Source: Brevibacterium sp. UMB1308A
Lineage (GTDB): Bacteria > Actinomycetota > Actinomycetes > Actinomycetales > Brevibacteriaceae
Direction: 5' to 3'
DNA: 64,000 nt
NCBI RefSeq assembly: GCF_030230605.1
Contig: NZ_JASPDO010000005.1
Coordinates: 1 to 64,000, forward strand
Within the stretch, counting starts at the first letter, position 1; each line of letters opens with the position of its first letter. The notes under the pieces are model-generated. The model was not told where the DNA came from. It ran no database searches and worked only from the letters and a program-made list of their open reading frames with translations. Shown here in pieces: positions 28,960 to 46,550 of the stretch. A program made the translations under genes and the position numbers.

Positions 28960-28963
28960 CGTT

Positions 28964-28987: not shown

Positions 28988-29001
28988 CACTCCGACAACT
29001 T

Positions 29002-29991: not shown

Positions 29992-29997
29992 GCTCTC

Positions 29998-30003
29998 ATT
30001 CTA
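29998..30003 (-). promoter_or_regulatory. -10 element for leaderless hydrolase mRNA
   Basis: TAGAAT on the minus strand ends six bases before GTG 29991, so the predicted start site is the start codon itself. No clear -35 at the expected distance. Confidence 0.4.
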
Positions 30004-30076
30004 AGTTCTCGTATGTGAACGCATTTGTTTTGTAAGCTCTATCTGATGGACCCAAGCTCTACCCAAGGGGGTGAAC

Positions 30077-31030
30077 ATGAAGCGGAAGTGGCCAATCGCC
30101 CTCATCTCCACGGGACTCATCGTGTGCCTGCTCACCCTGGTCTCAGTGCCCGTCCTCAACTTCACTGTTCACACACCCGGAAGAGCCGTACTCACATATT
30201 TCAAGGCCCTTGAAAACCACGACACCCACCGAGCCTTATCCATGCTCGATATACCGGGCAACACAAACCTCAACGGTGTCACTGACGACATTCTTTCCGG
30301 CGCCGCGAGCGTACCCAGACAAGCGAAAGTGCTGGACTCAACCCGGGTGAACGACGACGCGTACGACGTAAAAGTCTCGTACATCCAAGGCTCAGACACC
30401 CGTGAAACTACCTTCCGCGTGAAGCGTGACGCGCGTACTTTTGGCACAGTCCAAAAGTGGTACATCAAGTTAGACCAGTGGCCCGTCATTACGATCGACA
30501 CTGGTGGCGCGCCCACTGCGCAACTCAACGGCGTTTCCGTGCCCGCAGGAGAAACTCCTGTTCTTTTCCCCGTCACCTACACGGTCGGCTTCAACAGCAC
30601 ATACCTGCGTTCAGACCTCCAAACAGTCGATGTGACGGAACCCGATACCACCTCGGCCGTTCACTTAACGGGCAAACCCACCCCGGAGCTCACCAAAAAG
30701 GTCTCTGAAATCCTCAAAAAGCAGATTGACCAGTGCGTCAAGGAGAAAACCCTCATGCCCGCCGGTTGTGGCTTTGGGAAAGAAACCACCAACCAGATTC
30801 TGGGTGACGTTAAGTGGTCGGTGAAGTCCTACCCAAACGTCACGCTTGAAAACGGCGCGTCAGGCATTGAAATGGCACCTGCCAATGTGGAACTCACTGT
30901 GAGCGGAAAACAACGCGACGCTGTCACCGCGTTTGAATCCACTTTTACGGACACGGTCACTGCTCGCATGCGCGCTCAGGTCCGCATCGAAGGTAACAAC
31001 GTCACGGTTGTGCAGGAGGAAGCGGAGTAG
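30077..31030 (+). CDS. Hypothetical membrane-anchored extracytoplasmic protein
   Basis: A 317-residue protein with one N-terminal helix (about 5-27, ISTGLIVCLLTLVSVPVL) and a large extracytoplasmic part. AVLTYFKALENHDTHRALSM resembles a nuclear-transport-factor-2/DUF4878-like first domain that often binds small ligands. The middle (about 150-200) is beta-rich, and two cysteines (IDQC, PAGCGFG) may pair. I do not recognise the full family. GGGG lies close upstream of ATG 30077; a GTG six bases earlier is possible. It converges on the NHL-protein gene with 9 bp between stops. Confidence 0.65.
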   Translation: MKRKWPIALISTGLIVCLLTLVSVPVLNFTVHTPGRAVLTYFKALENHDTHRALSMLDIPGNTNLNGVTDDILSGAASVPRQAKVLDSTRVNDDAYDVKVSYIQGSDTRETTFRVKRDARTFGTVQKWYIKLDQWPVITIDTGGAPTAQLNGVSVPAGETPVLFPVTYTVGFNSTYLRSDLQTVDVTEPDTTSAVHLTGKPTPELTKKVSEILKKQIDQCVKEKTLMPAGCGFGKETTNQILGDVKWSVKSYPNVTLENGASGIEMAPANVELTVSGKQRDAVTAFESTFTDTVTARMRAQVRIEGNNVTVVQEEAE

Positions 31031-31039
31031 CGGGTCCAC

Positions 31040-32956
31040 TTACGCCCCGCGCAGGTCCAGTGCCAAATCGTTTGGCCCGTCCGCAACCACTGCAACCGGA
31101 ATACCCCAGTCCTGTTGGTACAGGTGGCACGCGGCGTGGAGTGGAATCTCACCGCCCGGTTCGCCGTCGCAGGCCGCCGCGCGGGCGGTGACGTGCAGAA
31201 CACCGGAGGTCACCTCGGGGTTGAGAGTGACTGTGCGTTGGGTGCCTTCCTTGCCGCCTGCCCCGTCGACAATGAGGTTCTCAGGAGTCGAGGACACTTG
31301 CAGGAACGTGGGGTCACCCCAGCGGTCGTCAAGCTTCTGACCTGCAGGAACAGTGAATGCCACGGTGATGTCCAGGGGTCCAGGCCCGATTTCCGTGACC
31401 GGCCTCTTGGTCTGCTGAGCACCTTCGTTCACTTCCAGAGCTTCTTCTGGAATGGCTACGGCCGTGAGCTGGTGAGCCGCGGATTCTGCGACCAGCAAGT
31501 AGCCCGAGGTGGTGTCGTCTCCCTGCATCAGCAGGATGTCCGAAGGTTCCTTCAGTCCGCGCGCCAGGGTGGACACGGTGTTGGTTTGGGGGTCAAACCG
31601 GCGGATGGCGCCGTTGTAGGTGTCGGCGATGGCGACCGTGCCGTCTGGAAGTTCGAGCGCTCCCAGTGGGTGCTGCAGGCGCGCGGATTCGGCTGGCCCG
31701 TCTTGGAATCCAAAGTCGAACAGGCCCACGCCCACGTATGACGTGACGGCACCGGTCGATGGGTCGAGTTTGCGCAGTGCCGAGGTTTCGGAGTCGGCCA
31801 CCCACACGTTACCGTCGCTGGCAAGCCGCACGCCAGACGGTTGGGCGAACCATTCGTCTAAGTCAAACGGGGTTGCCGCCGCCGAGGTGTCCCGCAGGCC
31901 TTCGTTGAGAGACCCGGAGATGTGCGCGACGGTTCCGGCTACCGGGTCGAAGGTCCACATGGTGTGGTTACCTGCCATGGCGATGACCACGTTGGACGTC
32001 TTGGGCGCGTACACCACGTCCCACGGGCTGGAGAGTTTCACGGACGTGGCTGGACCGTCGTAGCGTCCGGAAAATCCGGGCTGATCAGGAACGTTGTCGC
32101 TGGCTCCCACCATGTACTGTTCGCCGGTTCCGGCCACGGTGGTCACGGTTTGGGTTTCCAGGTTGATTCCGCGCAGCGTGTGGTTGACCGTGTCGGCTGC
32201 GACTAAGTGGTAGCCAACCTGTTGTGCGATTTCAGGTGGCAGCTGGGCCACTCCGCCGGGTTCTGAGAACTGGGCGGTGGCAAAGTCGCCGTCAACGTTT
32301 CCGCGTTCCCCGGAGCCGATCCGACCAAGCAGGTTCGCGCCTTCGCTGTCGTAGAGCACGTAGCTGTGGTGGCCGGAGTCGGCCACGATTAACCGGCCGT
32401 CGTCTAGGCGCACCACCTTGCCGGGGTAAAACAGGTCCCCTTCCCGAGGTGCGGGCGGCACATAGGGGGCGTCACCTCGGCGCAGAGTGCCTTTGGCTTC
32501 GTGTTCCGCGGCGACTTCTTCGATGAGGCTGATAAGGCCCGAGGTGTGCCCCTCTCCTGACATGGACGCGACGATGTAGCCTTCCGGGTCGATGACGACC
32601 AGGGTGGGCCAGGCGCGTGCGGTGTAGGCTTTCCAGGTTTCGAGGTTGGGGTCGTCTAACACGATGTGTTCGACTTGGTAGCGTTCGACTGCCCGGTCGA
32701 CGGCTTCGATTTCGCGTTCAAACTCAAACTTGGGTGAGTGGACACCAATCGTGACCAGGACGTCCGCGTACTTTTCTTCGAGTGGTCGCAGTTCGTCGAG
32801 CACGTGCAGGCAGTTGATGCAGCAGAACGTCCAAAAGTCGAGGAGGACGATCTTCCCGCGCAGATCTTCCAGGTTCAGATTCTTTCCGCCGGTGTTGATC
32901 CAGCGTCGGCCAACGAGTTCGGGGGCACGCAGTTTTACGCGGTTCGCATTGCTCAT
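31040..32956 (-). CDS. Thioredoxin-like/NHL-repeat protein (NHLRC2-type)
   Basis: A 638-residue protein. Residues ~5-145 form a thioredoxin/TlpA-like fold with the redox motif FWTFCCINCLHVLDELRPL (Cys-Cys-Ile-Asn-Cys). Residues ~165-500 form a six-bladed NHL beta-propeller (repeats such as GRLIVADSGHHSYVLYD, NVWVADSETSALRKLD and TVAIADTYNGAIRRFDP). A C-terminal beta domain completes the NHLRC2 layout. No signal peptide is apparent. The exact redox role is unknown. ATG 32956 is chosen because the thioredoxin domain follows at the normal distance; upstream in-frame ATG 33079 adds 41 residues of arginine-rich sequence and overlaps the moeA start. Confidence 0.88.
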   Translation of the reverse strand: MSNANRVKLRAPELVGRRWINTGGKNLNLEDLRGKIVLLDFWTFCCINCLHVLDELRPLEEKYADVLVTIGVHSPKFEFEREIEAVDRAVERYQVEHIVLDDPNLETWKAYTARAWPTLVVIDPEGYIVASMSGEGHTSGLISLIEEVAAEHEAKGTLRRGDAPYVPPAPREGDLFYPGKVVRLDDGRLIVADSGHHSYVLYDSEGANLLGRIGSGERGNVDGDFATAQFSEPGGVAQLPPEIAQQVGYHLVAADTVNHTLRGINLETQTVTTVAGTGEQYMVGASDNVPDQPGFSGRYDGPATSVKLSSPWDVVYAPKTSNVVIAMAGNHTMWTFDPVAGTVAHISGSLNEGLRDTSAAATPFDLDEWFAQPSGVRLASDGNVWVADSETSALRKLDPSTGAVTSYVGVGLFDFGFQDGPAESARLQHPLGALELPDGTVAIADTYNGAIRRFDPQTNTVSTLARGLKEPSDILLMQGDDTTSGYLLVAESAAHQLTAVAIPEEALEVNEGAQQTKRPVTEIGPGPLDITVAFTVPAGQKLDDRWGDPTFLQVSSTPENLIVDGAGGKEGTQRTVTLNPEVTSGVLHVTARAAACDGEPGGEIPLHAACHLYQQDWGIPVAVVADGPNDLALDLRGA

Positions 32957-33065
32957 GCTCTCATTGTTCCAAACTCTGGGCTGAGCATGCGTTCGAGTGT
33001 CACACACGGACACGGAAGGGCGATCTCTAGGGGTTCGTGCTCTGGCACGTGTGCGGCGCGGGCCG

Positions 33066-33071
33066 TAGTCT
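33066..33071 (+). promoter_or_regulatory. -10 element for leaderless moeA
   Basis: TAGTCT lies six bases before ATG 33078, so transcription would begin at the start codon. A weak CTGGCA lies 18 bp upstream of it. Confidence 0.45.
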
Positions 33072-33077
33072 ACTGAC

Positions 33078-34391
33078 ATGGTCTCGATTGCAGATTATCG
33101 CGAAAAACTTTTCGACTTCCTCCTGCTCCTGAGTAGTTGGGAGTACCGCGATCTCACTCAGGTGGCCGCCCACCCCATGCCCTTGCGGGCAGCCCAGCAC
33201 GTTGAGTCCACTGAGCAGGTTCCTCGGTTCGACAACTCCCAAATGGACGGGTTTGTTGTGCACCCCAGCGATCCCGAGGTGGTAGCTGGTAAGCCCGTTC
33301 CGCTCCTTCCCATGGCGGCCGCCGGGCACAATCCCGAACCGCTCACACCTGGCTTCGCGATGCCCATTATGACGGGGGCGAAGATTCCCGAATGGGATGG
33401 CCCTGCGTACGACGATGACGAATTCGAGTACGACCTGTGTGTGGTTCCGGTGGAAGAAACCGTGTCTGGGTTTGATGACCTTTCACATGTGACGTTTACG
33501 CCCCAGGCCACGTTTGAGCCCGGCAGGTTTGTTCGGCACCGGGGTAGCGACATCGACTATGAGGAAAAACTTTGTGCTGTTGGTGATCACCTCACACCAG
33601 CGCTGCTCGGTTCGCTCGCATCCGTGGGGCTCACACAGATTGCCGTGTTTAAACCATTGCGAGTCCTGGTTGTGTCCACGGGTGATGAAGTGTGCCAACC
33701 GGGTCAGCACCCAGGGGCGGCGCAGATCTACGATTCCAACACCTCGGCGGCGGTGGCAGCACTTTCAGCAGCGGGGGCCCACGTTGTAGGCACCCTGCAC
33801 GCCCCCGACCACCCAGATTTGTTGCTGGACGCGGTGCGCTCATGGCAGGCAGATGACGATCGGCGCGCCGATGTGGTCGTGTCGATGGGTGGCATTTCCA
33901 TGGGGGCCCGCGAAGTCATTCGATTGGCCTCTGAGCTGGAGGTGCAGCGGGGGGTCGAAAACTGGTACGGGGGCGCGCAGTCTCCCAGACTCCCCAACAG
34001 TGGCATGGAGTTCTGCCGTCTTCCCATGCAGCCGGGTGGCCCACAGGCAGTGGGCCAGTTGGCAGGGGTTCCGTGGGTTGCGTTGCCTGGAAATCCGGTA
34101 TCCACTCTGGTGAGCATTGAAGTGTTGTTGCGCACTTCGATGTTTGGAGCACATCCCCGAAACCGCATGAACGTCACGGTGCGCACGCCTGACGGTGAGC
34201 CGGTGAGCAGTCCGGCGGGGAAGACCCAGATGCGATTCGCGCGCGCTGATGCTGATGGAAGCGCGCAGTTGGAGTGCAGCAACAGTTCCCACTTATTGCA
34301 CATGCAGGCCGATGCGACCCTGCTGGTGATGATCCCGGAAGATGTCTCGGTCATCGAAGACGGCGACATGTTTGAGGCGCTCGCGCTCTGA
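33078..34391 (+). CDS. moeA: Molybdopterin molybdotransferase MoeA
   Basis: A 437-residue enzyme that inserts molybdate into adenylated molybdopterin. Blocks in order: PRFDNSQMDGFVV, PIMTGAKIPEW, the MoCF domain LVVSTGDEVC and SMGGISMGAREV, and VPWVALPGNPVSTLVS. A MoeA C-terminal beta domain follows. It is the first gene of a plus-strand molybdenum block (moeA, moaC, HTH-Mop, modABC) and is divergent from the NHL-protein gene with abutting 5' ends. Confidence 0.94.
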   Translation: MVSIADYREKLFDFLLLLSSWEYRDLTQVAAHPMPLRAAQHVESTEQVPRFDNSQMDGFVVHPSDPEVVAGKPVPLLPMAAAGHNPEPLTPGFAMPIMTGAKIPEWDGPAYDDDEFEYDLCVVPVEETVSGFDDLSHVTFTPQATFEPGRFVRHRGSDIDYEEKLCAVGDHLTPALLGSLASVGLTQIAVFKPLRVLVVSTGDEVCQPGQHPGAAQIYDSNTSAAVAALSAAGAHVVGTLHAPDHPDLLLDAVRSWQADDDRRADVVVSMGGISMGAREVIRLASELEVQRGVENWYGGAQSPRLPNSGMEFCRLPMQPGGPQAVGQLAGVPWVALPGNPVSTLVSIEVLLRTSMFGAHPRNRMNVTVRTPDGEPVSSPAGKTQMRFARADADGSAQLECSNSSHLLHMQADATLLVMIPEDVSVIEDGDMFEALAL

Positions 34392-34442
34392 GTTGCTGTA
34401 GGCGAGGGGTTGCGCGCACTGGAACCTGCTAGCGTGTGCCTC

Positions 34443-35015
34443 ATGACAGGCAGTTCGGAGCACAGCGCACCTCAGTTGTCTCACGTGGACGAATCGGGGG
34501 CCGCACGCATGGTGGATGTGGGTGGCAAACCCGTGACAGCCCGGCGGGCTGTGGCAAGCGGAACGGTGATCACCACACCAGAAGTCATGGACCTGATCGC
34601 TTCAGGAAACCTGCCTAAAGGAGAAGCCCTGCCAATCGCTCGCGTTGCTGGAATCATGGGGGCAAAACGAACTTGGGAGCTCATTCCCCTGTGCCACCCG
34701 CTGGACCTTTCTGGCATCGATGTGACGTTTAGCCTTGAGCGCGACCGTGTACACATTCAGGCCGAGGTGAAGACTTCAGGCAAAACGGGCGTCGAAATGG
34801 AGGCACTGACCGCTGTTTCGCTCACCGCTCTGACCATCTACGACATGATCAAGGCCGTTGACAAGCACGCGGTGCTCACTGACATCAAGGTTGACGCGAA
34901 GTCCGGCGGCAAGTCAGGCGACTGGACCCGCGAACCCGGAAACCACCTCGGGGACGGCGCCGTTAACCACCTCGGGGACGGCCACCCATTTCCACCCAAG
35001 GATTCACATGACTGA
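34443..35015 (+). CDS. moaC: Cyclic pyranopterin monophosphate synthase MoaC
   Basis: A 190-residue enzyme that, after MoaA, forms cyclic pyranopterin monophosphate. The signature blocks are ARMVDVGGKPVTAR, LPKGEALPIARVAGIMGAK, LIPLCHPL and VKTSGKTGVEMEALTAVS with the catalytic Lys. After the normal end the protein has an extra tail with two NHLGDG repeats encoded by a duplicated 18-bp segment that contains CACCTCGG. ATG 34443 follows a TAGCGT -10-like hexamer by seven bases. Its stop overlaps the next gene by 8 bp. Confidence 0.94.
   Translation: MTGSSEHSAPQLSHVDESGAARMVDVGGKPVTARRAVASGTVITTPEVMDLIASGNLPKGEALPIARVAGIMGAKRTWELIPLCHPLDLSGIDVTFSLERDRVHIQAEVKTSGKTGVEMEALTAVSLTALTIYDMIKAVDKHAVLTDIKVDAKSGGKSGDWTREPGNHLGDGAVNHLGDGHPFPPKDSHD
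34941..34982 (+). repeat. 18-bp duplicate in the moaC 3' end, each with the CACCTCGG octamer
   Basis: Identical segments AACCACCTCGGGGACGGC occur at 34941-34958 and 34965-34982 (24-bp period, in frame). They encode NHLGDG twice at the MoaC C-terminus. Confidence 0.9.
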
Positions 35016-35409
35016 CGCTCCTATGTACCGCGTGTCCGAAGCCGCCCGCTACCTCGACGTGAGTACCGACACGGTACGGCGCTGGATTGCAGCCGGCACG
35101 CTCACCCACCACACTGATTCCGCGGGGCGCACGGTGGTGGACGGGGTGGAGCTGGCTCGCCACGCCCGCAAAATCACGGTCCTGCCCGAAGACCCGCGTC
35201 ACATGTCCACGAGCGTGTCGAACCGGTTCTACGGCATTGTCACCGACGTCAAGCGTGGTGATGTCATGTCGATGGTGGAGATCCAAGCCGGCCCGCACCG
35301 CATCTTTTCCTTGGTGGGCACCGATGAGATCGAGCGCATGGGCCTCATTCCGGGAAGTGCTGTGATCGCCAGCGCCCTGGCGCAAGCGATCGCTCTGGAG
35401 CGCATTTAA
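35008..35409 (+). CDS. HTH-Mop molybdate-binding protein (MerR-type HTH plus TOBE/Mop)
   Basis: A 133-residue protein. Residues ~5-50 are an excisionase/MerR-like helix-turn-helix (YRVSEAARYLDVSTDTVRRW), and ~65-133 are one Mop/TOBE domain (SVSNRFYGIVTDVKRGDVMSMVEIQAGPH) that binds molybdate or tungstate. Such proteins act as molybdate stores or regulators. ModC here lacks its own TOBE domain, so this protein may provide molybdate sensing for the transporter or control the operon. ATG 35008 overlaps the moaC stop. Confidence 0.87.
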   Translation: MTDAPMYRVSEAARYLDVSTDTVRRWIAAGTLTHHTDSAGRTVVDGVELARHARKITVLPEDPRHMSTSVSNRFYGIVTDVKRGDVMSMVEIQAGPHRIFSLVGTDEIERMGLIPGSAVIASALAQAIALERI

Positions 35410-35412
35410 GAA

Positions 35413-35441
35413 TTACTGAATACCCGGGCGCGTCCTACCAT
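35413..35441 (+). promoter_or_regulatory. Promoter for leaderless modA
   Basis: TTACTG, 17 bp, TACCAT (35436-35441); the predicted start is 35448, the A of the modA ATG. The -35 match is weak, the -10 position is exact. Confidence 0.5.
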
Positions 35442-35447
35442 GAGGGT

Positions 35448-36197
35448 ATGAAGGTGATGAAGACTCTAGCTACGGTTGTGGCGCTCACACTGGCGTGTTC
35501 GGCGCTTACTTCATGCGGTGAATCGGAAGCAGATTCCACGTTGACCGTTTTCGCTGCTGCTTCATTGAAGAAGTCGTTCGAAGAAATCGGTAAGCAGTTT
35601 GAGGAAGAAACCGGCACCGCTGTGTCCTTCAACTTTGCTGGTTCGTCCGGTTTGGTTGAGCAGATGAAGTCTGGTGCGCCGGCCCATGCTTTCGCCTCCG
35701 CTGATGAGCCGACCATGAAAACCGCGATTGAAGCCGGGCTGGTTCAGGAGCCTCAGATTTTCGCTACGAACACGCTCACCATCGCCGTGCCTGAAGGTAA
35801 CCCGGCCAACATCACTGACCTGGAGTCACTGGCAAAGCCAGGCGTCAAGGTTGCCGTGTGCGCCCCTGCCGTGCCGTGTGGAAACGCCACCAAACAGGTT
35901 CTTGACCTGGCTGGTGTGTCTCTGACCCCGGCGACGGAAGAGCCCAAGGTGACGGCCGTGCTCACAAAGGTGGAATCTGGTCAGGTGGATGCGGGGCTCG
36001 TGTATGTGACGGATGCCAGCGCATCAGACAAGGTTGAGTCGGTGGATTTCCCGCAGGCCGCCGAGGTCGTTAACCGCTACCCCATCGCAGTCACCTCCAA
36101 GGGTGAAAAGGACGAGGGCGCTGAAAAGTTCGTTGAGTTTGTTCTGGCTGAGCGTGCTCAGCAGGTGCTTCAGTCGAACGGTTTTGGGACACCGTGA
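35448..36197 (+). CDS. modA: Molybdate ABC transporter substrate-binding lipoprotein
   Basis: A 249-residue lipoprotein with lipobox LTSC (Cys23). LTVFAAASLKKSFEEIGKQF and VSFNFAGSSGLVEQMKSGAP are the ModA signature with oxyanion-binding Ser residues. VKVAVCAPAVPCGNATKQVL and DAGLVYVTDA follow. It captures molybdate outside the membrane for ModB/ModC. An in-frame ATG nine bases downstream is an alternative start. It overlaps modB (GTGA). Confidence 0.95.
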   Translation: MKVMKTLATVVALTLACSALTSCGESEADSTLTVFAAASLKKSFEEIGKQFEEETGTAVSFNFAGSSGLVEQMKSGAPAHAFASADEPTMKTAIEAGLVQEPQIFATNTLTIAVPEGNPANITDLESLAKPGVKVAVCAPAVPCGNATKQVLDLAGVSLTPATEEPKVTAVLTKVESGQVDAGLVYVTDASASDKVESVDFPQAAEVVNRYPIAVTSKGEKDEGAEKFVEFVLAERAQQVLQSNGFGTP

Positions 36198-37048
36198 GTG
36201 GGTCTGGGCCGGGTGCTGAGTCTGGGGCTGGTGCTAAGTCCCGCTCTTCCGTGAAACCGCCTGCGGGAACGCCGTTCCCTTCCTGGATGTGGGTGCCGGC
36301 CGTTGTGGCGGCAGGCTTTGTGGCTTTCCCCATTGTGGGTTTGGTGCTTCGGGCTGACTGGCCGGAGTTTTTCTCGCTGGTCACCGCCCCTTCTGCTCTG
36401 CAGGCATTGCGTCTGTCGCTCATTACAGCCACGTGCGCCACAGTGTTTTCGGTACTGTTAGGCATTCCCTTGGCGCTGCTCACGGTCCGTGAATTTCCGG
36501 GTGTGCGGTTGTTACGCACGGTGGTGCTTTTGCCTTTGGTTCTTCCGCCGGTTGTGGGAGGTATTGCGCTTCTTGCAACTTTTGGGCGCGCGGGGCTCAT
36601 TGGTTCTTCTTTGGAAGCCGCTGGTGTTTCGATCGCGTTCACCACGGTGGCTGTGGTTGTGGCTCAGACGTTTGTGGCGATGCCTTTTGTGGTGCTCACG
36701 GTCGAAGGCGCGCTCACCTCCCTGGACCCTGGGTTCGCCAAGGTTGCAACCACGTTGGGCGCTGGCCCTACCCGCACGCTGTTTCGCATTGTTTTGCCTC
36801 TGATCCGGCCCGCGCTCATTTCAGGTGCGGTGCTAGCGTTTGCGCGCGCTCTGGGTGAGTTTGGGGCGACCGTGACATTTGCGGGTTCGCTCCAGGGGGT
36901 GACGCGCACGTTACCGCTCGAGGTGTATTTGCTGTCTGACTCTGGAGACACGGCAGGGGCTATTGCGGTGTCCGTGGTTCTCATGGTGGTGGCGTTCGTG
37001 GTGGTGGCCACGATGTATCGCAAAACGTCCCGAGGTGGCCGCCAGTGA
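36194..37048 (+). CDS. modB: Molybdate ABC transporter permease
   Basis: A 284-residue permease with five to six helices. The EAA loop contacting ModC reads EGALTSLDPGFAKVATTLGAGPTRTLFRI, and ARALGEFGATVTFAGS is characteristic of ModB. The N-terminus has an extra ~28 residues rich in Gly/Ser/Ala before the first helix, and some of these may not be translated. GTG 36194 overlaps the modA stop; its own stop overlaps modC. Confidence 0.93.
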   Translation: MSGSGPGAESGAGAKSRSSVKPPAGTPFPSWMWVPAVVAAGFVAFPIVGLVLRADWPEFFSLVTAPSALQALRLSLITATCATVFSVLLGIPLALLTVREFPGVRLLRTVVLLPLVLPPVVGGIALLATFGRAGLIGSSLEAAGVSIAFTTVAVVVAQTFVAMPFVVLTVEGALTSLDPGFAKVATTLGAGPTRTLFRIVLPLIRPALISGAVLAFARALGEFGATVTFAGSLQGVTRTLPLEVYLLSDSGDTAGAIAVSVVLMVVAFVVVATMYRKTSRGGRQ

Positions 37049-37704
37049 CCTTGCATGTTGCGTTTTCGTTGCCCCAGCGAGGTGTGAACATTGACGTTGA
37101 GCTCCCGCTTACGGGTGTCACTGCGGTGATTGGCCCTAATGGGGCGGGTAAATCCACCACGTTCGATGTCATCGCCGGTCTGCTACCGGTGCGGGGTGCC
37201 ACCGTGCGGGTGGGGCAGCGAGACTTCAATTCGCCTGCTGTTCCTGCGCATAAACGCAGGATCGGCTATGTCATGCAAGACCCACGTCTGTTTCCGCATA
37301 TGAGTGTGGAAGCCAATGTTGCTTTTGGTCTGGCACGCGGTGAGAAGGGGCGCGCGGTTGAGGAACTCAAGCGTTTTCACGTTGAGCATCTGCGGGATCG
37401 GATGCCGAATACGCTGTCTGGCGGGCAAGCTGCCCGAGTTGCTTTGGCTCGTGCGCTGGCCCCGCAGCCGGAACTGCTGTTGCTGGATGAACCGTTTGTG
37501 GCTTTGGATGCGCCTGCGCGCGCCGAACTGCGCGCACACCTGCACACGCTCAGCACTCCTGTTCTTCTCATCACTCACGACCGAGCAGATATTGAGATCG
37601 CCGATCACGTTGTGGTTCTTGAGGATGGGCACGTTGTGCAAGTAGGTACCAGAGCCGAGGTCGCAGCCCAGCCACGCGGTCTCGCCACCGAACTCGTAGG
37701 CTAG
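37045..37704 (+). CDS. modC: Molybdate ABC transporter ATP-binding protein, short form without TOBE domain
   Basis: A 219-residue ATPase with complete motifs: Walker A GPNGAGKST, Q-loop YVMQDPRLF, signature TLSGGQAARVALARALA, Walker B LLLLDEPFVALD and H-loop LLITHD. The usual ModC C-terminal Mop/TOBE domain (~130 residues) is absent; the protein ends shortly after the H-loop. The separate HTH-Mop protein in the same cluster may replace it. GTG 37045 overlaps modB. Palindromic repeat copy B begins 15 bp after the stop. Confidence 0.93.
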   Translation: MTLHVAFSLPQRGVNIDVELPLTGVTAVIGPNGAGKSTTFDVIAGLLPVRGATVRVGQRDFNSPAVPAHKRRIGYVMQDPRLFPHMSVEANVAFGLARGEKGRAVEELKRFHVEHLRDRMPNTLSGGQAARVALARALAPQPELLLLDEPFVALDAPARAELRAHLHTLSTPVLLITHDRADIEIADHVVVLEDGHVVQVGTRAEVAAQPRGLATELVG

Positions 37705-37718
37705 GTGTCTTCCTCACA

Positions 37719-37786
37719 CGAAACGGCGCAAAACGAGCGAAACTACGCAATATAACGCGCCGTATCGCTCGTTTTACGCCGTTTGG
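37719..37786. repeat. Palindromic repeat, copy B
   Basis: About 68 bp. Outer arms AACGGCGCAAAACGAGCGA and the complement TCGCTCGTTTTACGCCGTT, centre GCAATATAACGC. It lies between modC (+) and moeZ (-). Its inner arms are in the opposite order to copy A: the GATACGGCGC arm is on the right here and on the left in A. Likely a bidirectional terminator and mobile-element-like repeat. Confidence 0.85.
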
Positions 37787-37832
37787 ACCTGCACTAATCG
37801 CCAGTTTCACATTCACACACAACGGTTAGCCA

Positions 37833-37913
37833 CGGGTTTCGTCTTCGCCCCGGTGGCTTAATTCCGGGTTTCGTCTTCACACGGGTTGGCTTAATTCCCG
37901 GTTTCGTTTTCGC
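37833..37913. repeat. Tandem 32-33-bp repeat derived from the moeZ 3' end
   Basis: Units begin at 37833, 37865 and 37898. Each contains CGGGTTTCGTCTTC or a close variant, and the first two are followed by GGCTTAATTC. On the minus strand every unit reads as the last codons of moeZ (GAAAACGAAACC, then GGGAATTAA), and the second and third copies lie past the real stop. This is a recent-looking tandem duplication of a gene end. Confidence 0.8.
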
Positions 37914-39099
37914 GCGTAGCGGTTTGCACAACCGGAAGTCCGGCTCCCATCCAACCGTACATGCCGCCGATCACGTTGGTGAGGCGAATGTGCTGGACCT
38001 CGGGTTGGGAGTGGAACATCTGGATCGCGTACTGCGAGCGCACACCTGCCTGGCACATGACATAGACGTGTGGCTCCGGGGTGCCTTCAACCTCTAATGC
38101 GAGTGCGCGCGCCGAGCCTTCCGGGTTATCCATGATCGTCGACAAAGGCAACAGGCGTGCACCTGACGCGTGCCCCGAATCGAACTCGTATTCTTCACGC
38201 ACATCCAGAACAAAGGCGCCGTTAGGAATCTGTGCGGGGGCCACCTCGGCGGGCTCGAAGCGGTCAGGCTCCTCGCCCACTGAGTGGGTTTCAGACTCAG
38301 GCGTTGAATGGGGCTCGGACTGTGACGCCCCACCCGAGCCCACTAACGACACGTACTCCCACATGCCGGTGAGCATGTCATACACTCCAACCTGCCCCAC
38401 CAAAGGTTGGCCTAGGCCGGTGATGAGCTTCAGCGCTTCAGCTGCTTGGGCCACCCCCAACTGGCCCGGAACAACCCCCAGAACCCCGGCCTCGGCGCAC
38501 GTGGGAACATCGGTGGGAGCAACCGGGTACAGGTCACGGTACGTGGGCCCGTAGGGCATGAACACCGACATTTGCCCGCCAGTTGTCAGCACGGCCGCCC
38601 ACACGTGCGGAATCCCTACGTCCCGGCACGCTTCCGAAACGACGTAGCGGGTCTCAAAGTTATCGGCTCCGTCAAGGACCACGTCATAATCACGCACAAG
38701 TTGGCGGGCGTTGTCCGCGGTGAGTCGTTCACGGTGCCTCACCACGTGGACGTCCGGGTTCAGGGCCGTTAAGTGCGCAGCCGCGGATTCGACCTTGGGC
38801 TCCCCCACCGAATCAGTCATGTGGAGCGGCTGGCGATGCAGATTCGACGTTTCAACAACGTCGTCGTCAACGAGCCCAAGCGTGCCCACACCCGCGCTGG
38901 CCAGATAAATCGCCGCCGGAGAGCCCAAACCACCAGCACCAACGACCAGCACGCGGGCCCGCGCTATCGCCTGCTGCCCAGCCACGCCCACAACGTTGAG
39001 CTGCCGCATGTAGCGCCCGCTCACACGAGCCTGGCCTCCGTGATCGCCCGGGCTTCCCAGGTTTCCCACGCCCTCCGGGTCTCTCATGCCGTCCGTCAC
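37891..39099 (-). CDS. moeZ: MoeZ-type adenylyltransferase/sulfurtransferase (ThiF-MoeB plus rhodanese)
   Basis: A 402-residue E1-like enzyme that adenylates and thiocarboxylates MoaD (and possibly related ubiquitin-like carriers). The MoeB part has the nucleotide loop VLVVGAGGLGSPAAIYLASAG, DDDVVETSNLHRQ, and Cys in TDVPTCAEAGVLGVVPG. The structural zinc CxxC pairs usual in E. coli MoeB are not evident. Residues ~290-395 form a rhodanese domain with active-site Cys in VMCQAGVRSQ. Its start overlaps the mogA-moaE gene by 4 bp. The 3' end is tandemly duplicated downstream. Confidence 0.93.
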   Translation of the reverse strand: MTDGMRDPEGVGNLGSPGDHGGQARVSGRYMRQLNVVGVAGQQAIARARVLVVGAGGLGSPAAIYLASAGVGTLGLVDDDVVETSNLHRQPLHMTDSVGEPKVESAAAHLTALNPDVHVVRHRERLTADNARQLVRDYDVVLDGADNFETRYVVSEACRDVGIPHVWAAVLTTGGQMSVFMPYGPTYRDLYPVAPTDVPTCAEAGVLGVVPGQLGVAQAAEALKLITGLGQPLVGQVGVYDMLTGMWEYVSLVGSGGASQSEPHSTPESETHSVGEEPDRFEPAEVAPAQIPNGAFVLDVREEYEFDSGHASGARLLPLSTIMDNPEGSARALALEVEGTPEPHVYVMCQAGVRSQYAIQMFHSQPEVQHIRLTNVIGGMYGWMGAGLPVVQTATRENETGN

Positions 39100-40094
39100 T
39101 GCAAGCCCACCCAGTCGTGTCCGCCGGAGTCGTAGTGCTGCTGCTTCCAGATAGGCACCCGTGCTTTGACCTGGTTGACCACGTCTTCGCAGCAGTCGAA
39201 CGCGGCCTTCCGGTGAGCGGCTGCAACCGCAACTACGATCGCCACGTCGCCCACCTGCAACGATCCCACCCGGTGTTCACACAGAACCCGAGTCCCCGGG
39301 TGCGCTTGGGCAACCTCACCCACCACCTGCGCGAGTACTTTCTCCGCATCCGGATGGCACGTGTAGTCCAGGCCTACGACGCCACCTCGGCCAGAGTCGT
39401 GGTTACGGATGACGCCACTGAACTCCACGATCGCCCCGCATTCCGCGGTGATGACTTTGCTAACCGCGTCTGTGATGCACGGGTCGTGCGTGATTCGGGT
39501 TGCCACCACCGCCGAGGTGGTCGCCGGCTGGTCTGTTACCCCCGAACTGGCCTCCGGCTGGGCGGCCACGCCCCCAGGAGGCGCGGCGACCGCGGACTTT
39601 TCACCACCTCGGTCGTGGGTGCGAATGTTGGCGATCTGGTCACACGCGTGCGACAACAGGGGCGCAAGCGTGACCATGGCGTCGCGAACAGCCGACCGCG
39701 AACCCGGAAGGTTGATCACCAGCGTCGACCCTGCGACCCCAGCAATTCCTCGGCTCAAAGCAGCATGAGGAGTGTGTTCCAGGCCCTGCGCAATCAATGC
39801 CTGTTCGATTCCAGGAATCCGACGCTCAACAAAACGCGCGGTCATTTCAGGTGTCACATCGTCCGGGGTCAGCCCCGTGCCACCTGTCGTGATCACCACC
39901 GCAGGTGCGTCGCGCAGGATCTGCTCAAGCGCATCGGCGACCGCATGCCCGTCACTCACACGCACCGGTTCAGGGGTGGCAAACCCCAACCCGCGTAACC
40001 ATTCGGCGAGTTCGGGACCCGTGGTATCAGTCGCGTCACCGCGAGCAACTGAGCTCGACACCACCAGAACAAACGCAGCGTCATTTTTCCTCAT
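39096..40094 (-). CDS. MogA/MoaB-MoaE fusion: molybdopterin adenylyltransferase plus molybdopterin synthase large subunit
   Basis: A 332-residue fusion. Residues ~5-160 are a MoCF domain (AVVITTGGTGLTPDDVTPEMT, GIAGVAGSTLVINLPGSRSA) like MogA/MoaB, which adenylates molybdopterin. An Ala/Thr/Gly linker (~165-190) leads to a MoaE domain (~195-332): ECGAIVEFSGVIRNHD, EHRVGSLQVGDVAIVVAVAAAHR and the catalytic Lys region KARVPIWKQQ. MoaE with MoaD converts cPMP to molybdopterin, so the fusion joins two successive steps. A TAGTGT -10-like hexamer ends seven bases before ATG 40094. It shares a 39-bp intergenic region with divergent moaA. Confidence 0.92.
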   Translation of the reverse strand: MRKNDAAFVLVVSSSVARGDATDTTGPELAEWLRGLGFATPEPVRVSDGHAVADALEQILRDAPAVVITTGGTGLTPDDVTPEMTARFVERRIPGIEQALIAQGLEHTPHAALSRGIAGVAGSTLVINLPGSRSAVRDAMVTLAPLLSHACDQIANIRTHDRGGEKSAVAAPPGGVAAQPEASSGVTDQPATTSAVVATRITHDPCITDAVSKVITAECGAIVEFSGVIRNHDSGRGGVVGLDYTCHPDAEKVLAQVVGEVAQAHPGTRVLCEHRVGSLQVGDVAIVVAVAAAHRKAAFDCCEDVVNQVKARVPIWKQQHYDSGGHDWVGLQ

Positions 40095-40098
40095 GCAC

Positions 40099-40127
40099 TT
40101 AACACTACCTGCGCTCGCGGATACCCT
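40099..40127 (+). promoter_or_regulatory. Promoter for leaderless moaA
   Basis: TTAACA (40099-40104), 17-bp spacer, TACCCT (40122-40127): the predicted start is 40134, the first base of the moaA ATG. This is the best promoter of its kind in the window. Confidence 0.65.
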
Positions 40128-40133
40128 AGTGAG

Positions 40134-41276
40134 ATGAACGTGTCACTGGGAATGCCGTCGATCCGCACAGAAAGTGTCGCAGACCGTGCCGCGCACACCC
40201 AGAACACTTTGGATCGGCGCGCGCACGATGCTCCCACCTCGGGCCCGCTAGCCGACACATTCGGTCGCACGGGCACTGACCTGCGGGTTTCGCTCACTGA
40301 TCTGTGCAATCTGCGGTGCACGTATTGCATGCCCGCGGCCGGGATGACGTTCCTGCCTAAGGACGCTGTTCTCACCGCCGCCGAGGTGGTTCGTCTTGTC
40401 CGTGTCGCAGTGGACGTTCTGGGGGTGTGTGAGCTCCGGCTCACCGGCGGAGAGCCGCTGTTGCGTCAAGACCTGGCGCACATCATTGCGAGTATTCGCG
40501 ACAACCACCCGGACCTGCCGATCGCCATGACTACCAACGCGATTGGTCTTGATAAACACCTGCCTGCACTTCACAAAGCCGGCTTGAACCGCATTAACGT
40601 TTCGCTGGACACTGTGGACCCTGCGACGTTCGCTCAACTGTCCCGGCGCACTAAGTTTTCCGAAGTCATGGATGGGCTTAACGAGGCCTTGCGTCTGCGT
40701 GACCAGACCGCCGGAGATAGCGCTCCGTTCGGGGTGAAAATCAACAGCGTGCTCATGCGCGGAGTCAACGACCACCAGGCAGTAGACCTCGCCCAGTTTG
40801 GAATCGACCACGGAGTCACGGTGCGGTTCATTGAACAGATGCCGCTCGACGCCGACCACGGCTGGACCCGCCAAAACATGGTCACCGCCCACGACATCGC
40901 CACCCAGCTACAACAGCGGTGGGAGCTGCGACCTCGGACCGGGCGCGGGAGCGCACCTGCGGAGCTCTTTGACCTGGTGGACGTCCGAGGTGTTGTAGGG
41001 CAGGTGGGGATCATCGCGTCAGTCACGCGCCCGTTCTGCTCAGCCTGCACGCGCACGCGGATCACCGCGGAAGGCAAGATCCGGTCGTGCCTGTTTTCCC
41101 ACGAGGAGTTCGACCTGGCCGCGCTGTTGCGTTCCGGGGCCAGTGATGACCAGATTGCGCAAGCGTGGCGGCAAGCCATGTGGCTCAAACCCAAAGCGCA
41201 CGGAATGGGTCAGGCTGGGCTAGATTCGGATGCATATGAGCAACCCAACAGGTCGATGAGCGCGATTGGAGGATGA
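40134..41276 (+). CDS. moaA: GTP 3',8-cyclase MoaA (radical SAM)
   Basis: A 380-residue double Fe-S cluster radical SAM enzyme starting Mo-cofactor synthesis from GTP. The N-terminal cluster motif is CNLRCTYC (Cys58, 62, 65), the SAM block is LRLTGGEPLLR, and the C-terminal GTP-binding cluster is FCSACTRTRITAEGKIRSCL. The conserved terminal Gly-Gly is present (SAIGG). The first ~40 residues are longer than usual. The start is fixed by the leaderless promoter. moaD follows after 1 bp. Confidence 0.95.
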   Translation: MNVSLGMPSIRTESVADRAAHTQNTLDRRAHDAPTSGPLADTFGRTGTDLRVSLTDLCNLRCTYCMPAAGMTFLPKDAVLTAAEVVRLVRVAVDVLGVCELRLTGGEPLLRQDLAHIIASIRDNHPDLPIAMTTNAIGLDKHLPALHKAGLNRINVSLDTVDPATFAQLSRRTKFSEVMDGLNEALRLRDQTAGDSAPFGVKINSVLMRGVNDHQAVDLAQFGIDHGVTVRFIEQMPLDADHGWTRQNMVTAHDIATQLQQRWELRPRTGRGSAPAELFDLVDVRGVVGQVGIIASVTRPFCSACTRTRITAEGKIRSCLFSHEEFDLAALLRSGASDDQIAQAWRQAMWLKPKAHGMGQAGLDSDAYEQPNRSMSAIGG

Positions 41277-41277
41277 C

Positions 41278-41571
41278 ATGAGTGCGAGTGCCCAGAATCA
41301 GGTGTCTGTTCGCTACTTCGCCGCCGCCCGGGCCGCAACCGGTGTTGAGCAGGAAGACGTTGCGTTGGACGGCCAACTGAGTAGCGGGGCAACCCGTGAA
41401 CAGTTCATTGAACTGCTCATCAGTCTTCACCCCGAGGTGCCTGCCGGGGAACCGCCGTTGGCACGGGTGCTGTCCCAGTGTTCGTTCCTGGTTGACGGTG
41501 TCGCGTTGACCGACGGCAAGGTTGTGCCTGGGAACCGCGTCGATGTCTTGCCCCCGTTTGCGGGCGGGTGA
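41278..41571 (+). CDS. moaD: Molybdopterin synthase sulfur carrier subunit MoaD
   Basis: A 97-residue beta-grasp protein. VRYFAAARAATGVEQEDV and the C-terminal LPPFAGG with Gly-Gly identify MoaD; the last Gly is thiocarboxylated by MoeZ, then used by MoaE. ATG 41278 follows GGAGG by five bases; an earlier in-frame start lies inside moaA. After it, 41572-41673 contains no gene and no clear hairpin. Confidence 0.92.
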   Translation: MSASAQNQVSVRYFAAARAATGVEQEDVALDGQLSSGATREQFIELLISLHPEVPAGEPPLARVLSQCSFLVDGVALTDGKVVPGNRVDVLPPFAGG

Positions 41572-41673
41572 GCGCACTGAGCCCCCGCGATTGTCTCCTG
41601 TCCCGTCTCGGCCCCTCGCCCGAGGTTCGCACCTGGAGACTGCTACCCCACCCGTACTCGTGAAGGAGAACTC

Positions 41674-42519
41674 ATGGAACTTATGCGCGTAGGCCCACGT
41701 GGCCAGGAAATCCCCGTGGCTAGGCTGGACGGCCGCCACTACGATGTGCGAGCCCTCACCGGCGACTTCAATGCTGAGTTCTGGACACGCGGGGCTAACA
41801 CCCTGACCGCGGCTCAGGTCACAGAATGTCAAGAGATCAGCATTGACGGTCAGCGAATCGGCGCCCCGGTGGCTCAGCCGGGCGCGATCATCTGTATTGG
41901 CACCAACTACGCCGCCCACGCCGCAGAAGCCGGACTCCCCACCCCAACTCACCCCGTGGTTTTCCTCAAAACCCCCAACACGGTAGCCGGTCCGTACGAT
42001 GAGCTGGAACCACCTCGGCGATTTTCCCAACTGGACTGGGAAGTTGAACTTGCCCTGATCATTGGGCGGGCGGCCCACAACCTCGACTCGCCCGAACAGG
42101 CCCGGGACCACATTGCTGCGTACACGGTTGCCAATGACCTGTCCGAACGGATCTTCCAAACCCAGGAATCCGGCGGGCAGTGGTCCAAGGGAAAGTGCTT
42201 CCCCGGTGCCCTACCTCTGGGGCCGGTCGCGGTGAGCGCTGACGCATTCGACCCCACGAACGCCCGTCTGACCAGCCACGTGAACGGGGAGCCTCGGCAG
42301 GATTCTTCCACGGCTGACATGGTTTTCGACGTGTTCCAGCTGGTGTATGACCTGTCCCAGTACATGCGGCTAGAACCTGGAGACGTGATCGCGACAGGAA
42401 CCCCGCAGGGCGTCGCCATGTCCGGCCAGTTCCCGTACCTGGAAAGCGGCGATGTCGTCGAGGTCGCGATCGAAGGACTAGGTACACAACGCACACAGAT
42501 TGGCATAATGGCCCCATGA
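41674..42519 (+). CDS. Fumarylacetoacetate hydrolase family protein
   Basis: A 281-residue FAH-fold enzyme. Metal and active-site motifs are ICIGTNYAAHAAEAG, LDWEVELALIIGR (metal Glu) and the DLSER and GKCFPGALPLGP blocks, ending in EPGDVIATGTPQGV. It probably acts on 2-oxo/acylpyruvate or 2-hydroxyhepta-diene-dioate substrates; the exact one is unclear. GAAGGAGA precedes ATG 41674. It overlaps the next gene by 4 bp in a three-gene set with PatB and YggS. Confidence 0.88.
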   Translation: MELMRVGPRGQEIPVARLDGRHYDVRALTGDFNAEFWTRGANTLTAAQVTECQEISIDGQRIGAPVAQPGAIICIGTNYAAHAAEAGLPTPTHPVVFLKTPNTVAGPYDELEPPRRFSQLDWEVELALIIGRAAHNLDSPEQARDHIAAYTVANDLSERIFQTQESGGQWSKGKCFPGALPLGPVAVSADAFDPTNARLTSHVNGEPRQDSSTADMVFDVFQLVYDLSQYMRLEPGDVIATGTPQGVAMSGQFPYLESGDVVEVAIEGLGTQRTQIGIMAP

Positions 42520-43763
42520 GCTACGACGACATCACAATTGACTCCCTCATTGAAAAGGGAAGCTTCAAATGGACTGCCTACCCCGGCACAATCGGCGCCT
42601 GGACGGCAGAAATGGACTTTGGGGTCGCGCCGGCGATCCGCGCCACACTTGAGCAGTTGGACGCCCGCGACCTGTACGGGTACTCCACCCCTGCGCTCAT
42701 GAGCGACATGGCCCAGGCGACCGCCCAGTTCTACAGCGACACCTACGGTTGGGACGTCAACCCCGAATGGGTCTCACCCGTGTCAGACGTGCTCACCGGC
42801 ATGCAAGCGGTGCTGAGCTTCTACACCGAACCGGGCGCCAAACTGGTGCTGCCCACCCCCGCCTACATGCCTTTCCTGTCCATGCCTAAGCTGCACGGGC
42901 GCGAGATTGTCGAAGTTCCCATGCTGCGGAATGAAGCGGGGGCTGGAAGCGCCGCAGGGGCTGGTTCAGGGTCGGTGGAGCCTGCCTGGTCCATGGACTT
43001 CGAGGCGATCGACCGCGCGCTGTCCACTGCCGGTGCCGACGGTGGCCCAGGTGGTCTGCTGGTGCTGTGCAACCCGCACAACCCGATTGGTCGCGTGTAC
43101 ACCCGTGGTGAGCTGGAAGAACTGTCCCGCATCGTTGAAAAGCACGGGGCCCGGGTGTTCTCCGATGAAATCCACGCACCACTGACCTTCACCCGTCACG
43201 CCCACGTGCCCTACGCGTCCATCAACGAAGCGGCCGCGAACCACACCGTTACGGTCACCTCGCACTCCAAGAGCTTCAACACCCCCGGGCTCAAATGCGC
43301 GCAAATCATCTTCTCCAACGATGCCGATGTCGCCACATGGAGCACGCATGGCATGTTCACTGGGAAATCGGCTGCCAACCCCGGACTGCTGGCAGCCGTG
43401 GCCGCCTACCGTGACTCGCGAGACTGGCTGGCGGACACCTCGGCGTATTTAGAACGCAACCGGGACGCACTCCCCGGCCTTTTGGAGCGCCACCTGCCAC
43501 AGGCCGTGTACCAACCGCCAGAGGGCACGTACCTCGCCTGGATTGACTTGAGCGCGTACGACCTGGGCGATGACCTGACCTCGTTTTTTGTGGACCGGGC
43601 GCGCGTGTCCATCATTGACGGGGCGCTGTGCGGAGAAGCCGGCCGAGGTTTCATCCGGCTGAACATGGGCACCCCGCTTCCGATCCTGGAAAAGATTGTG
43701 GAGCGCTTGGGTGCGGCTGTCGCTGGCACTCCCGTTGCGCCGGTTGGGGAGGGGTCCGCGTGA
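42516..43763 (+). CDS. PatB/MalY-type PLP-dependent C-S lyase (aminotransferase class I/II)
   Basis: A 415-residue fold-type I PLP enzyme. AEMDFGVAP and LYGYSTPALMSDMA open the protein as in MalY/PatB cystathionine beta-lyases. The PLP lysine is in SHSKSFNTPGLK (about residue 250), and LCNPHNPIGRVYT and VFSDEIHAPLTF are the cofactor blocks. It should cleave C-S bonds of cysteine conjugates or cystathionine; a transaminase role is possible. The Gly/Ala/Ser insert around residues 130-150 is longer than usual. GTGA overlap with yggS. Confidence 0.88.
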   Translation: MSYDDITIDSLIEKGSFKWTAYPGTIGAWTAEMDFGVAPAIRATLEQLDARDLYGYSTPALMSDMAQATAQFYSDTYGWDVNPEWVSPVSDVLTGMQAVLSFYTEPGAKLVLPTPAYMPFLSMPKLHGREIVEVPMLRNEAGAGSAAGAGSGSVEPAWSMDFEAIDRALSTAGADGGPGGLLVLCNPHNPIGRVYTRGELEELSRIVEKHGARVFSDEIHAPLTFTRHAHVPYASINEAAANHTVTVTSHSKSFNTPGLKCAQIIFSNDADVATWSTHGMFTGKSAANPGLLAAVAAYRDSRDWLADTSAYLERNRDALPGLLERHLPQAVYQPPEGTYLAWIDLSAYDLGDDLTSFFVDRARVSIIDGALCGEAGRGFIRLNMGTPLPILEKIVERLGAAVAGTPVAPVGEGSA

Positions 43764-44476
43764 GTGAGACCTTGAGTGCCCACGAAGCGGAGCAGATTAG
43801 GAGCAAACTAGACGACGTGGCTGAACGTGTGCGCGCGGCGAGTGAAGCGTCCGAACACGTTGACCGCGTGCAGGTCCTGCTGGCTACGAAAACGCAGCCG
43901 GCCAGCAAGATTCGGGTGGCGTTGGAGCACGGGTTCACGTTGATTGGTGAGAACCGGGTGCAGGAACTCAATGAGAAGTTCGACGACTTGGCTGGTATTC
44001 CGCACGAAACTCACCTCATTGGCCCGTTGCAGCGCAACAAGGTCAATCACACGCTGGGTCAAGCGACGTGCATTCAGTCGATCGATTCGATGAAGCTCGC
44101 CACCAAGATTCACAACCGCTTGGAGCTTTTGGACCAGACGGTTGAGGCGTTTGTGCAGGTCAACACCAGTCGCGAGGACACCAAATCAGGCGTAGCGCCA
44201 GAAGAACTGGGCGAGTTGCTCAAGGAGATTGCACCGTTAGAGCGGATTCGGGTGCGCGGGCTCATGACGATTGGGCTCCCAGGGTCTACCGAGGCCGAGG
44301 TGCGCCCGTCGTATGCGGACCTGCGGAACCTCCGCGACACGCACCTGGAGTCCGGTCTGCTGCCAGAACACGCGACCGAACTGTCCATGGGGATGAGCAA
44401 CGACTTTGAGCTTGCGATTGCAGAAGGCGCCACCATGGTGCGCATTGGCTCAAGTGTGTTTGGTGCGCGGGCCTAA
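43760..44476 (+). CDS. yggS: YggS/PROSC family PLP homeostasis protein
   Basis: A 238-residue fold-type III PLP-binding protein that buffers pyridoxal phosphate rather than catalysing a known reaction. The PLP lysine lies in LLATKTQPASKI (Lys44), with GENRVQELNEKF, HLIGPLQRNK and the C-terminal LSMGMSNDFELAI phosphate loop. GTG 43760 overlaps the patB stop and follows GGGGAGGGG; an earlier in-frame ATG lies inside patB. Linkage to a PLP lyase makes functional sense. Repeat copy C follows 7 bp after the stop. Confidence 0.92.
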   Translation: MSETLSAHEAEQIRSKLDDVAERVRAASEASEHVDRVQVLLATKTQPASKIRVALEHGFTLIGENRVQELNEKFDDLAGIPHETHLIGPLQRNKVNHTLGQATCIQSIDSMKLATKIHNRLELLDQTVEAFVQVNTSREDTKSGVAPEELGELLKEIAPLERIRVRGLMTIGLPGSTEAEVRPSYADLRNLRDTHLESGLLPEHATELSMGMSNDFELAIAEGATMVRIGSSVFGARA

Positions 44477-44483
44477 GTAGGTG

Positions 44484-44549
44484 CGAAACGGCGCGAAGTG
44501 AGCGGTACGGCGCGTTACATTGCGCCGTATCGTTCACTTCGCGCCGTTT
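44484..44549. repeat. Palindromic repeat, copy C
   Basis: About 66 bp and the most symmetrical copy: AACGGCGCGAAGTGAGCGGT, then ACGGCGC, centre GTTACATT, then the complementary arm. It lies between yggS (+) and the dehydrogenase gene (-). Both inner arms have the TACGGCGC form. Compensating changes keep the stem paired relative to copies A and B. Confidence 0.88.
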
Positions 44550-44569
44550 GGTGGAGTCACGTACGCGGT

Positions 44570-45478: not shown

Positions 45479-45547
45479 GTTTGCCTCCTTGCAGGGACTT
45501 CTTTCCTTGACGACTACCTTATGCTGTACGTCACACTCTGAGGCTCA

Positions 45548-46432: not shown

Positions 46433-46438
46433 GCACAA

Positions 46439-46444
46439 AGTTTA
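46439..46444 (-). promoter_or_regulatory. -10 element for leaderless LysR gene
   Basis: TAAACT six bases before ATG 46432, with a -35-like GTCACA 18 bp further upstream on the minus strand. Confidence 0.45.
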
Positions 46445-46550
46445 TCGGCAGGGCCTGGGGAATGTGACCTAGTAAAAGGCTTCCGCGTGTATGCCAACTG
46501 CGCGTGTATGACCGCGACGGGACGAACCGCGGGCTACGGGACTGCCAACG

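Follow-up and report, generated by a model that had tools for sequence, protein, structure and literature searches.

In extracts of PMC4390886, over-frequent DNA words fall into three classes, namely Chi sites, uptake sequences and highly iterated palindromes (HIPs). Uptake sequences have been described for the Pasteurellaceae and the Neisseriaceae, the uptake signal sequence (USS) of the former occurring in many short copies that distinguish self from foreign DNA (extracts of PMC7811141), and the DNA uptake sequence (DUS) of the latter in thousands of copies, which make up as much as 1% of the chromosome, have accumulated in the core genome and come in clade-specific dialects around a common core (extracts of PMC3630211). 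The actinobacterium Micrococcus luteus requires Tad pili for its transformation, and tad together with ComEA/ComEC is frequent in Actinobacteria (extracts of PMC4322843). Here we report on an over-frequent word, the heptamer CCGAGGT and its extension by G to the octamer CCGAGGTG, in 64,000 nt of Brevibacterium sp. UMB1308A (the window, i.e., the whole stretch of DNA that was analysed) and in 57 Brevibacterium genomes. We put at about even the chance that this word serves as an uptake-sequence-like self mark of Brevibacterium chromosomes for transformation by a Tad/ComEA/ComEC route, a function suggested by its distribution.

Excess, reading frames and conservation of the word

The window contains 80 copies of CCGAGGT (41 on the plus and 39 on the minus strand), 51 of which are CCGAGGTG (25 and 26, respectively), and these are its most frequent 7-mer and 8-mer. 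A Markov-corrected count, set beforehand as a check on the original prediction that the octamer is over-represented, bore out the excess, since an order-2 model gives 10.2 heptamers and 3.6 octamers. The heptamer occupies about 0.9% of the window (80 × 7 bases), and is followed by G in 51 copies, C in 22, T in 7 and A in none. Eighth-base variants excepted, the one-mismatch neighbours of CCGAGGTG occur 0 to 8 times each, and heptamers with one mismatch number 178 against 216 under the order-2 model.

The window aligns with one of the genomes, G001, at 91.8% identity over 50.4 kb and therefore comes from a close relative of B. mcbrellneri; G001 very likely is that species, and B. mcbrellneri ATCC 49030 has a 1006-residue antiporter-like protein 98% identical to the window's. 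In the lineage comprising the window, G001 and G025, octamers with one mismatch amount to 538 against 518, while the hexamer neighbours of the core CCGAGG amount to 3858 against 5049 in this lineage but to 6905 against 7062 in G035, G007 and G043.

A simple model based on hexamers called 59 genes in the window (91% coding), and synonymous codons were shuffled within each gene, preserving the protein and the codon use (hereafter the codon null). The called genes hold 74 heptamers against 14.4 ± 3.3 under this null, and 47 octamers against 5.7 ± 2.4. Broken down by codon phase and orientation, the heptamer is raised in four classes (20 against 4.8, 10 against 0.7, 20 against 4.0, and 14 against 0.7) and more weakly in a fifth (9 against 4.2), the sixth having 1 against 0.1; the excess is thus not confined to one codon phase. 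When all 8-mers were ranked under the codon null, CCGAGGTG headed the list in three cases, with z = 17.6 for the window, 11.6 for G001 and 18.8 for G025. Densities per kb in coding and intergenic DNA were 1.27 and 1.04 in the window, 0.96 and 1.10 in G001, 0.86 and 1.06 in G025, and 1.76 and 1.75 in G035, with intergenic counts of 35 in G025 and 91 in G035 against order-2 expectations of 5.7 and 14.6, respectively. No bias between sense and antisense was seen (31/43 in the window, 38/42 in G001, 80/81 in G025, and 158/172 in G035). Hence, as is characteristic of uptake sequences, the word lies in both orientations, in several reading frames, and both within and between genes. The codon shuffling and the equal intergenic density rule out a codon effect as the main cause, and strongly support the earlier view of a DNA-level signal.

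Conservation could be assessed for the 63 of the 80 window heptamers that lie inside blocks alignable with G001. Fifty-five of them are identical in B. mcbrellneri. Codon position and base predict 35.2 (P = 1e-7), and correcting for how 7-mers behave in general raises this figure to about 40 (P = 3e-5). CCGAGGT thereby ranks fifth among 145 frequent 7-mers, and half of the four that rank higher overlap the motif. Of the 8 non-identical sites, seven have a single base changed, the position varying from site to site, and the remaining one has three. In the reverse comparison, 55 of 60 aligned G001 copies were identical in the window.

Dialects, resident DNA and partner genes

Throughout the 2.6 Mb of G001, CCGAGGTG occurs 1,495 times and its reversed word 111 times. 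By raw counts, CCGAGGTG is at least five times as frequent as its reversed word in 47 of the 57 Brevibacterium genomes, and CGCCGAGG at least ten times in 39, reaching a maximum of 7,242 copies in G035 (about 1.5% of that genome, at 8 bases a copy); the frequency in many of these genomes is about 1 per thousand bases. Raw CCGAGGTG counts are also raised relative to the reversed word across much of the order (248 genomes). Reversing the word does not provide an adequate control where coding DNA is rich in GC, and the codon test was therefore repeated on stretches fetched from other genomes.

Under the codon null, (i) CCGAGGTG pooled over the window lineage gave 195 copies against 33.5, (ii) CGCCGAGG was the top 8-mer in G003, G035 and G046 (330 against 134 in G035; z = 16.8), and pooling of G035, G007 and G043 gave 132 against 20.5 for CGCCGAGGCG and 77 against 10.7 for CGCCGAGGTG, (iii) G030, G012, G009, G021, G031 and G040 showed a weak to moderate, 1.6- to 2.5-fold excess of CCGAGGTG (32 against 13.9 in G012), a variant, CCGAGGCG, ranking first in G012 and G009, and (iv) CCGAGGT was weakly raised, about 1.4- to 1.5-fold, in G056 (42 against 29.1 ± 4.2) and G023 (31 against 20.9 ± 3.3), and showed no excess in the GC-rich G037, G002 having 61 against 36.5 ± 5.1. 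The ranking of 8-mers disclosed no dominant alternative word in the low clade (G037, G056). Simple counts alone, with no codon test, were made for the short contigs of G014, G016, G038, G055 and G040 and for stretches of G034 and G051, one G051 stretch serving also for the flanks of the word.

The word exists in dialects: (C/G)CCGAGGTG in the window lineage and CGCCGAGG(C/T)G in other species tested, with CCGAGG as the core common to both. On a tree of ComEC, genomes in which the signal is strongest make up two clades, one being the window lineage (G001, G025) and the other a large clade of 18, and those with the lowest raw counts (G014, G016, G037, G038, G055 and G056) fall together, such that the dialects track the clades of this quick one-gene tree, which includes 37 of the 57 genomes (the other 20 are not in it) and is unsure in its long branches. 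Outside the genus, the codon test covered five pieces from three genomes of other families of the order (L173 from G110 and L177 from G061 were left out as too short). G077 (L174-L175) had a mild excess, with CCGAGGTG at 16 against 5.3 and CGCCGAGG at 29 against 15.1, so that the word may reach beyond Brevibacterium; G095 had little excess and G240 none.

Within an otherwise syntenic stretch, G001 carries an island of about 23 kb (contig C79, about 73.8-97.0 kb; L119/L120; GC 65%) that is missing from the window at about 47.75 kb; its proteins, read by eye, are recombinase- and transposase-like, efflux-like and mercury-related, with one match to mercury(II) reductases. No excess was found in this island, with 4 heptamers in coding sequences against 5.1 under the codon null and 0 octamers, whereas the 56 kb flanking it hold 56 against 11.5; the comparison inside and outside horizontally acquired DNA, suggested at the outset, thus separated the two in this one island. 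The original prediction had also offered the word as a tag of transfer from a richer genome. Such a mark of transfer into the molybdenum region can be rejected: the region is common with the sister species, the word is genome-wide in G001 and raised in 47 of 57 genomes, and the island that was acquired shows no excess.

Among three phages, CCGAGGTG is present 0 times in Cantare (60 kb), 0 times in Rousseau (40 kb) and 7 times in LuckyBarnes (40 kb), and their coding sequences show no clear excess under the codon null (0 against 2.5, 0 against 1.1, and 5 against 3.5, respectively). The coding sequence of Cantare holds 4 copies of CCGAGG against 26.6 under the codon null. Restriction avoidance of the word in this phage was rejected, as CCGAGG ranks 435 of 2080 (5 against 10.7 under the order-2 model) and other words are avoided far more. 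Cantare (L111/L113) strongly avoids CGATCG, GTCGAC, words containing GGWCC or CCWGG, and other palindromes, as expected from host restriction. Of ten terminase matches sampled in Brevibacterium genomes, the prophage-like part of L091 (G020) was near the null (3 against 1.6), and L100 (G011) had 6 against 3.1. No Brevibacterium plasmid was present among the 60 of at least 5000 records listed. On this small sample, one island and three phages, the word is common in resident and scarce in acquired DNA; the contrary observation comes from the eight remaining terminase-bearing stretches, considered below.

Replication polarity was examined in ten 20-kb stretches from each of two single-contig genomes, taking the origin from clusters of parS-like GTTTCACGTGAAAC and assuming the terminus opposite. 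Seven such sites lie in L045 (G035:C1:1-20000), at the start of G035, and 4 in L061, at about 1.2 Mb in G025. Leading- and lagging-strand copies were even, 82 versus 97 in G025 (P = 0.30) and 183 versus 185 in G035 (P = 0.96), which rules out replication polarity of the word in these two genomes; the test of orientation relative to origin and terminus that the original prediction had proposed accordingly gave no bias.

As to candidate partner genes, ComEC and TadE family matches are present in all 57 Brevibacterium genomes, and ComEA was found in 36 of the 37 loci read, adjoining ComEC in G025; in the exception, G038, the locus sits on a contig of 5.4 kb and may be truncated. RecC (PF04257) was matched in 0 of 57 genomes (AddAB and AdnAB not searched). 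C5 methylases (PF00145) occur in 26 of 57 and Eco57I-type methylases (PF07669) in 25 of 57 genomes, neither of them in the motif-rich G025 (other methylase families not searched), and no constant C5 or Eco57I-type methylase was found as a partner of the word.

Position of the copies in the window

All 80 heptamers of the window (1..64000) were listed with their flanks. The densest stretch, 31211..44302, holds 30 heptamers and 23 octamers, the heptamers being divided 17 to 13 between the two orientations, exactly as counted by eye beforehand for 31.0-44.3 kb. The earlier flank counts (about 25 on the left and 10 on the right) had to be corrected to 37 heptamers (21 octamers) and 13 (7); per kb, the flanks are still lower, at 1.18 and 0.69 versus 2.29. 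A scan statistic gives P of about 0.014 for the densest 13.3 kb and 0.009 for the densest 20 kb. Clustering in the molybdenum region is therefore mild, and the word, being genome-wide, is no mark of molybdenum genes. The B. mcbrellneri counterpart of the dense stretch also has the highest density among 22 related stretches examined. The heptamers are not regularly spaced in the window (mean gap 777, standard deviation 924). Two 5-kb stretches, 19518-24761 and 44295-49376, are free of internal heptamers, and the codon null predicts few in them as well (0.3-0.4).

Copies of CCGAGGTG in the NHL/thioredoxin-like gene lie at 31211..31218 (-; encoding PEVT) and 32473..32480 (-), and antisense to it at 31504..31511 (+), 31882..31889 (+; TSA), 32444..32451 (+; APR) and 32539..32546 (+). 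In moeA, assigned by Pfam, they lie at 33274..33281 (+) and, antisense, at 33740..33747 (-), and in moaC, likewise assigned, at 34762..34769 (+) and, antisense and both encoding HLG, at 34944..34951 (-) and 34968..34975 (-); the peptide examples given earlier for moaC and the NHL protein were correct. Further copies are found in an ABC permease gene (37030..37037, +), a ThiF/rhodanese gene (38242..38249, -), the MoCF/MoaE gene (39383..39390 and 39605..39612, both -; antisense at 39512..39519, +), the radical-SAM molybdenum cofactor gene (40381..40388 and 40985..40992, both +; antisense at 40235..40242, -), a short called frame, 41266-41571, that is unsure as a gene (41432..41439, +), antisense in the called gene 41674-42519 (42011..42018, -; PPRR), and antisense in an aminotransferase gene (43436..43443, -). 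The copy that ends the dense stretch (44295..44302, +) is in no called gene, and neither is that at 51880..51887 (-), which the original prediction had placed, at 51882, between genes.

Two mutually related hairpins of 64 nt each, with 28-nt arms and an 8-nt loop, stand between convergent genes at 37721-37784 and 44486-44549. Similar copies occur in at least 29 places in G001 (40 of 120 candidates scored), and the hairpins look like elements of the repetitive extragenic palindrome or bacterial interspersed mosaic element (REP/BIME) type, or two-way terminators.

Candidate roles and comparison with known systems

The word matches uptake sequences in its dialects on a common core, its share of about 1% of the chromosome, its lack of a clear excess in the phages and of any excess in the island, and its intragenic placement on both strands, and for this reason we favour an uptake-like role. 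During natural transformation, a protein at the cell surface or in the pilus, belonging to the Tad-pilus/ComEA/ComEC route, would bind the word, fragments of the own or a sister species would preferentially be taken up and recombined, and word-bearing alleles would spread via this uptake bias. In this way the word would build up in the resident genome, in either strand, in various reading frames and also outside genes, and it would not be gained by phages or newly arrived islands. Brevibacterium itself would then be competent. The fuller proposal, of a Brevibacterium uptake-sequence system with at least two dialects, a Tad pilus and a predicted receptor, which evolved independently outside the two Gram-negative families, is tentative, and we rate it a little below an even chance. 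Among the roles listed by the original prediction, the uptake-like one fits best; recombination (Chi) and methylation, although conceivable, have lost support.

Several observations weigh against the uptake-like role. Word-poor genomes also keep ComEC, TadE and, where the locus is readable, ComEA, so that the presence of these genes does not predict the word and no correlation with any of the three was seen. The neisserial receptor ComP belongs to the N_methyl-motif class of pilins; such pilins (PF07963) were matched in 0 of 57 genomes, and no ComP-type receptor was found. The phage LuckyBarnes has 19 copies of CCGAGGT against 10.5 under the order-2 model, and the host strains of the three phages may be poor in the motif. 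Eight 20-kb terminase-bearing stretches (L092-L099, from G007, G008, G015, G027, G032, G043 and G051) hold CGCCGAGG at host level, 169 against 65.6 under the null, in counts that cover the element and the flanking chromosome together. One of these terminases, L082, matches terminase families, yet a comparison with 50,697 phage records gave no hit. The element may be an old resident, perhaps an old or domesticated phage element. Finally, no report of transformation in Brevibacterium was found among the matches listed in the full-text literature searched.

We consider it unlikely that the word is a Chi-like signal, which would halt a helicase-nuclease of the AdnAB/AddAB type, promote repair, and shield resident but not phage DNA. 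Like the Chi sites of RecBCD/AddAB, which are among the three classes in extracts of PMC4390886, it is a short, non-palindromic and over-frequent resident word, without excess in the island and the three phages, and species-specific variants would fit a co-evolving nuclease. Unlike Chi sites, it has no orientation bias, the leading and lagging counts being even in both genomes examined; this lack of polarity, together with the absence of any RecC match in the 57 genomes, argues against Chi, and a RecC-type Chi was rejected. Mycobacterial AdnAB is not known to be Chi-controlled.

Of similarly low probability is a role like that of cyanobacterial HIP1, in which selection would maintain the word as, for example, a site for methylation, for a nucleoid protein or for chromosome architecture. 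The likeness is that of an over-frequent octamer in resident DNA, HIP1 being common in host DNA and linked with orphan methylases (extracts of PMC4390886). HIP1 is palindromic and has orphan methylases to match, whereas the reverse complement of CCGAGGTG is CACCTCGG and no constant methylase emerged from the two families searched; non-palindromy and patchy methylases thus speak against a HIP. An architectural site fits poorly too: FtsK-orienting polar sequences (KOPS) and architecture-imparting sequences show strand polarity from origin to terminus, and the word has none.

That the word is a mere by-product of mutation or codon usage in a GC-rich genome is scarcely credible, and as the whole story is refuted for the window lineage, for although other genomes of high GC content within the order also have raised raw CCGAGGTG counts relative to the reversed word, the codon pair GCC-GAG-G is common, and part of the excess in GC-rich species is so explained (134 of the 330 copies of CGCCGAGG in G035), most of the excess survives synonymous shuffling, intergenic density is equally high, the GC-rich G037 has no excess and G056 and G023 a weak one, and sites unshared between species differ at varied positions rather than at one mutable base.

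If the uptake-like role holds, the word would belong to a system of uptake sequences in Actinobacteria whose receptor differs from the neisserial ComP, pointing to a new kind of receptor, and would suggest that Brevibacterium, a genus of cheese and skin bacteria, is naturally transformable. An independent actinobacterial case, with dialects as well as word-poor species, would make it possible to test by comparison how codes of this kind originate. In the full-text literature searched, which includes few subscription journals, we found among the matches listed no report of the word in Brevibacterium or of an actinobacterial uptake sequence.

The USS of Pasteurellaceae occurs about once per kb, on both strands. 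The Brevibacterium word resembles it in being short and present in many copies, and differs from it in sequence and in the envelope of the host. From the DUS of Neisseriaceae it likewise differs in sequence, in its Gram-positive host and in the lack of an N_methyl pilin match in 57 genomes; it is like the DUS in its share of the DNA, from about 0.9% in the window to 1.5% in G035, in its clade-linked dialects, and in the common core around which these are built.

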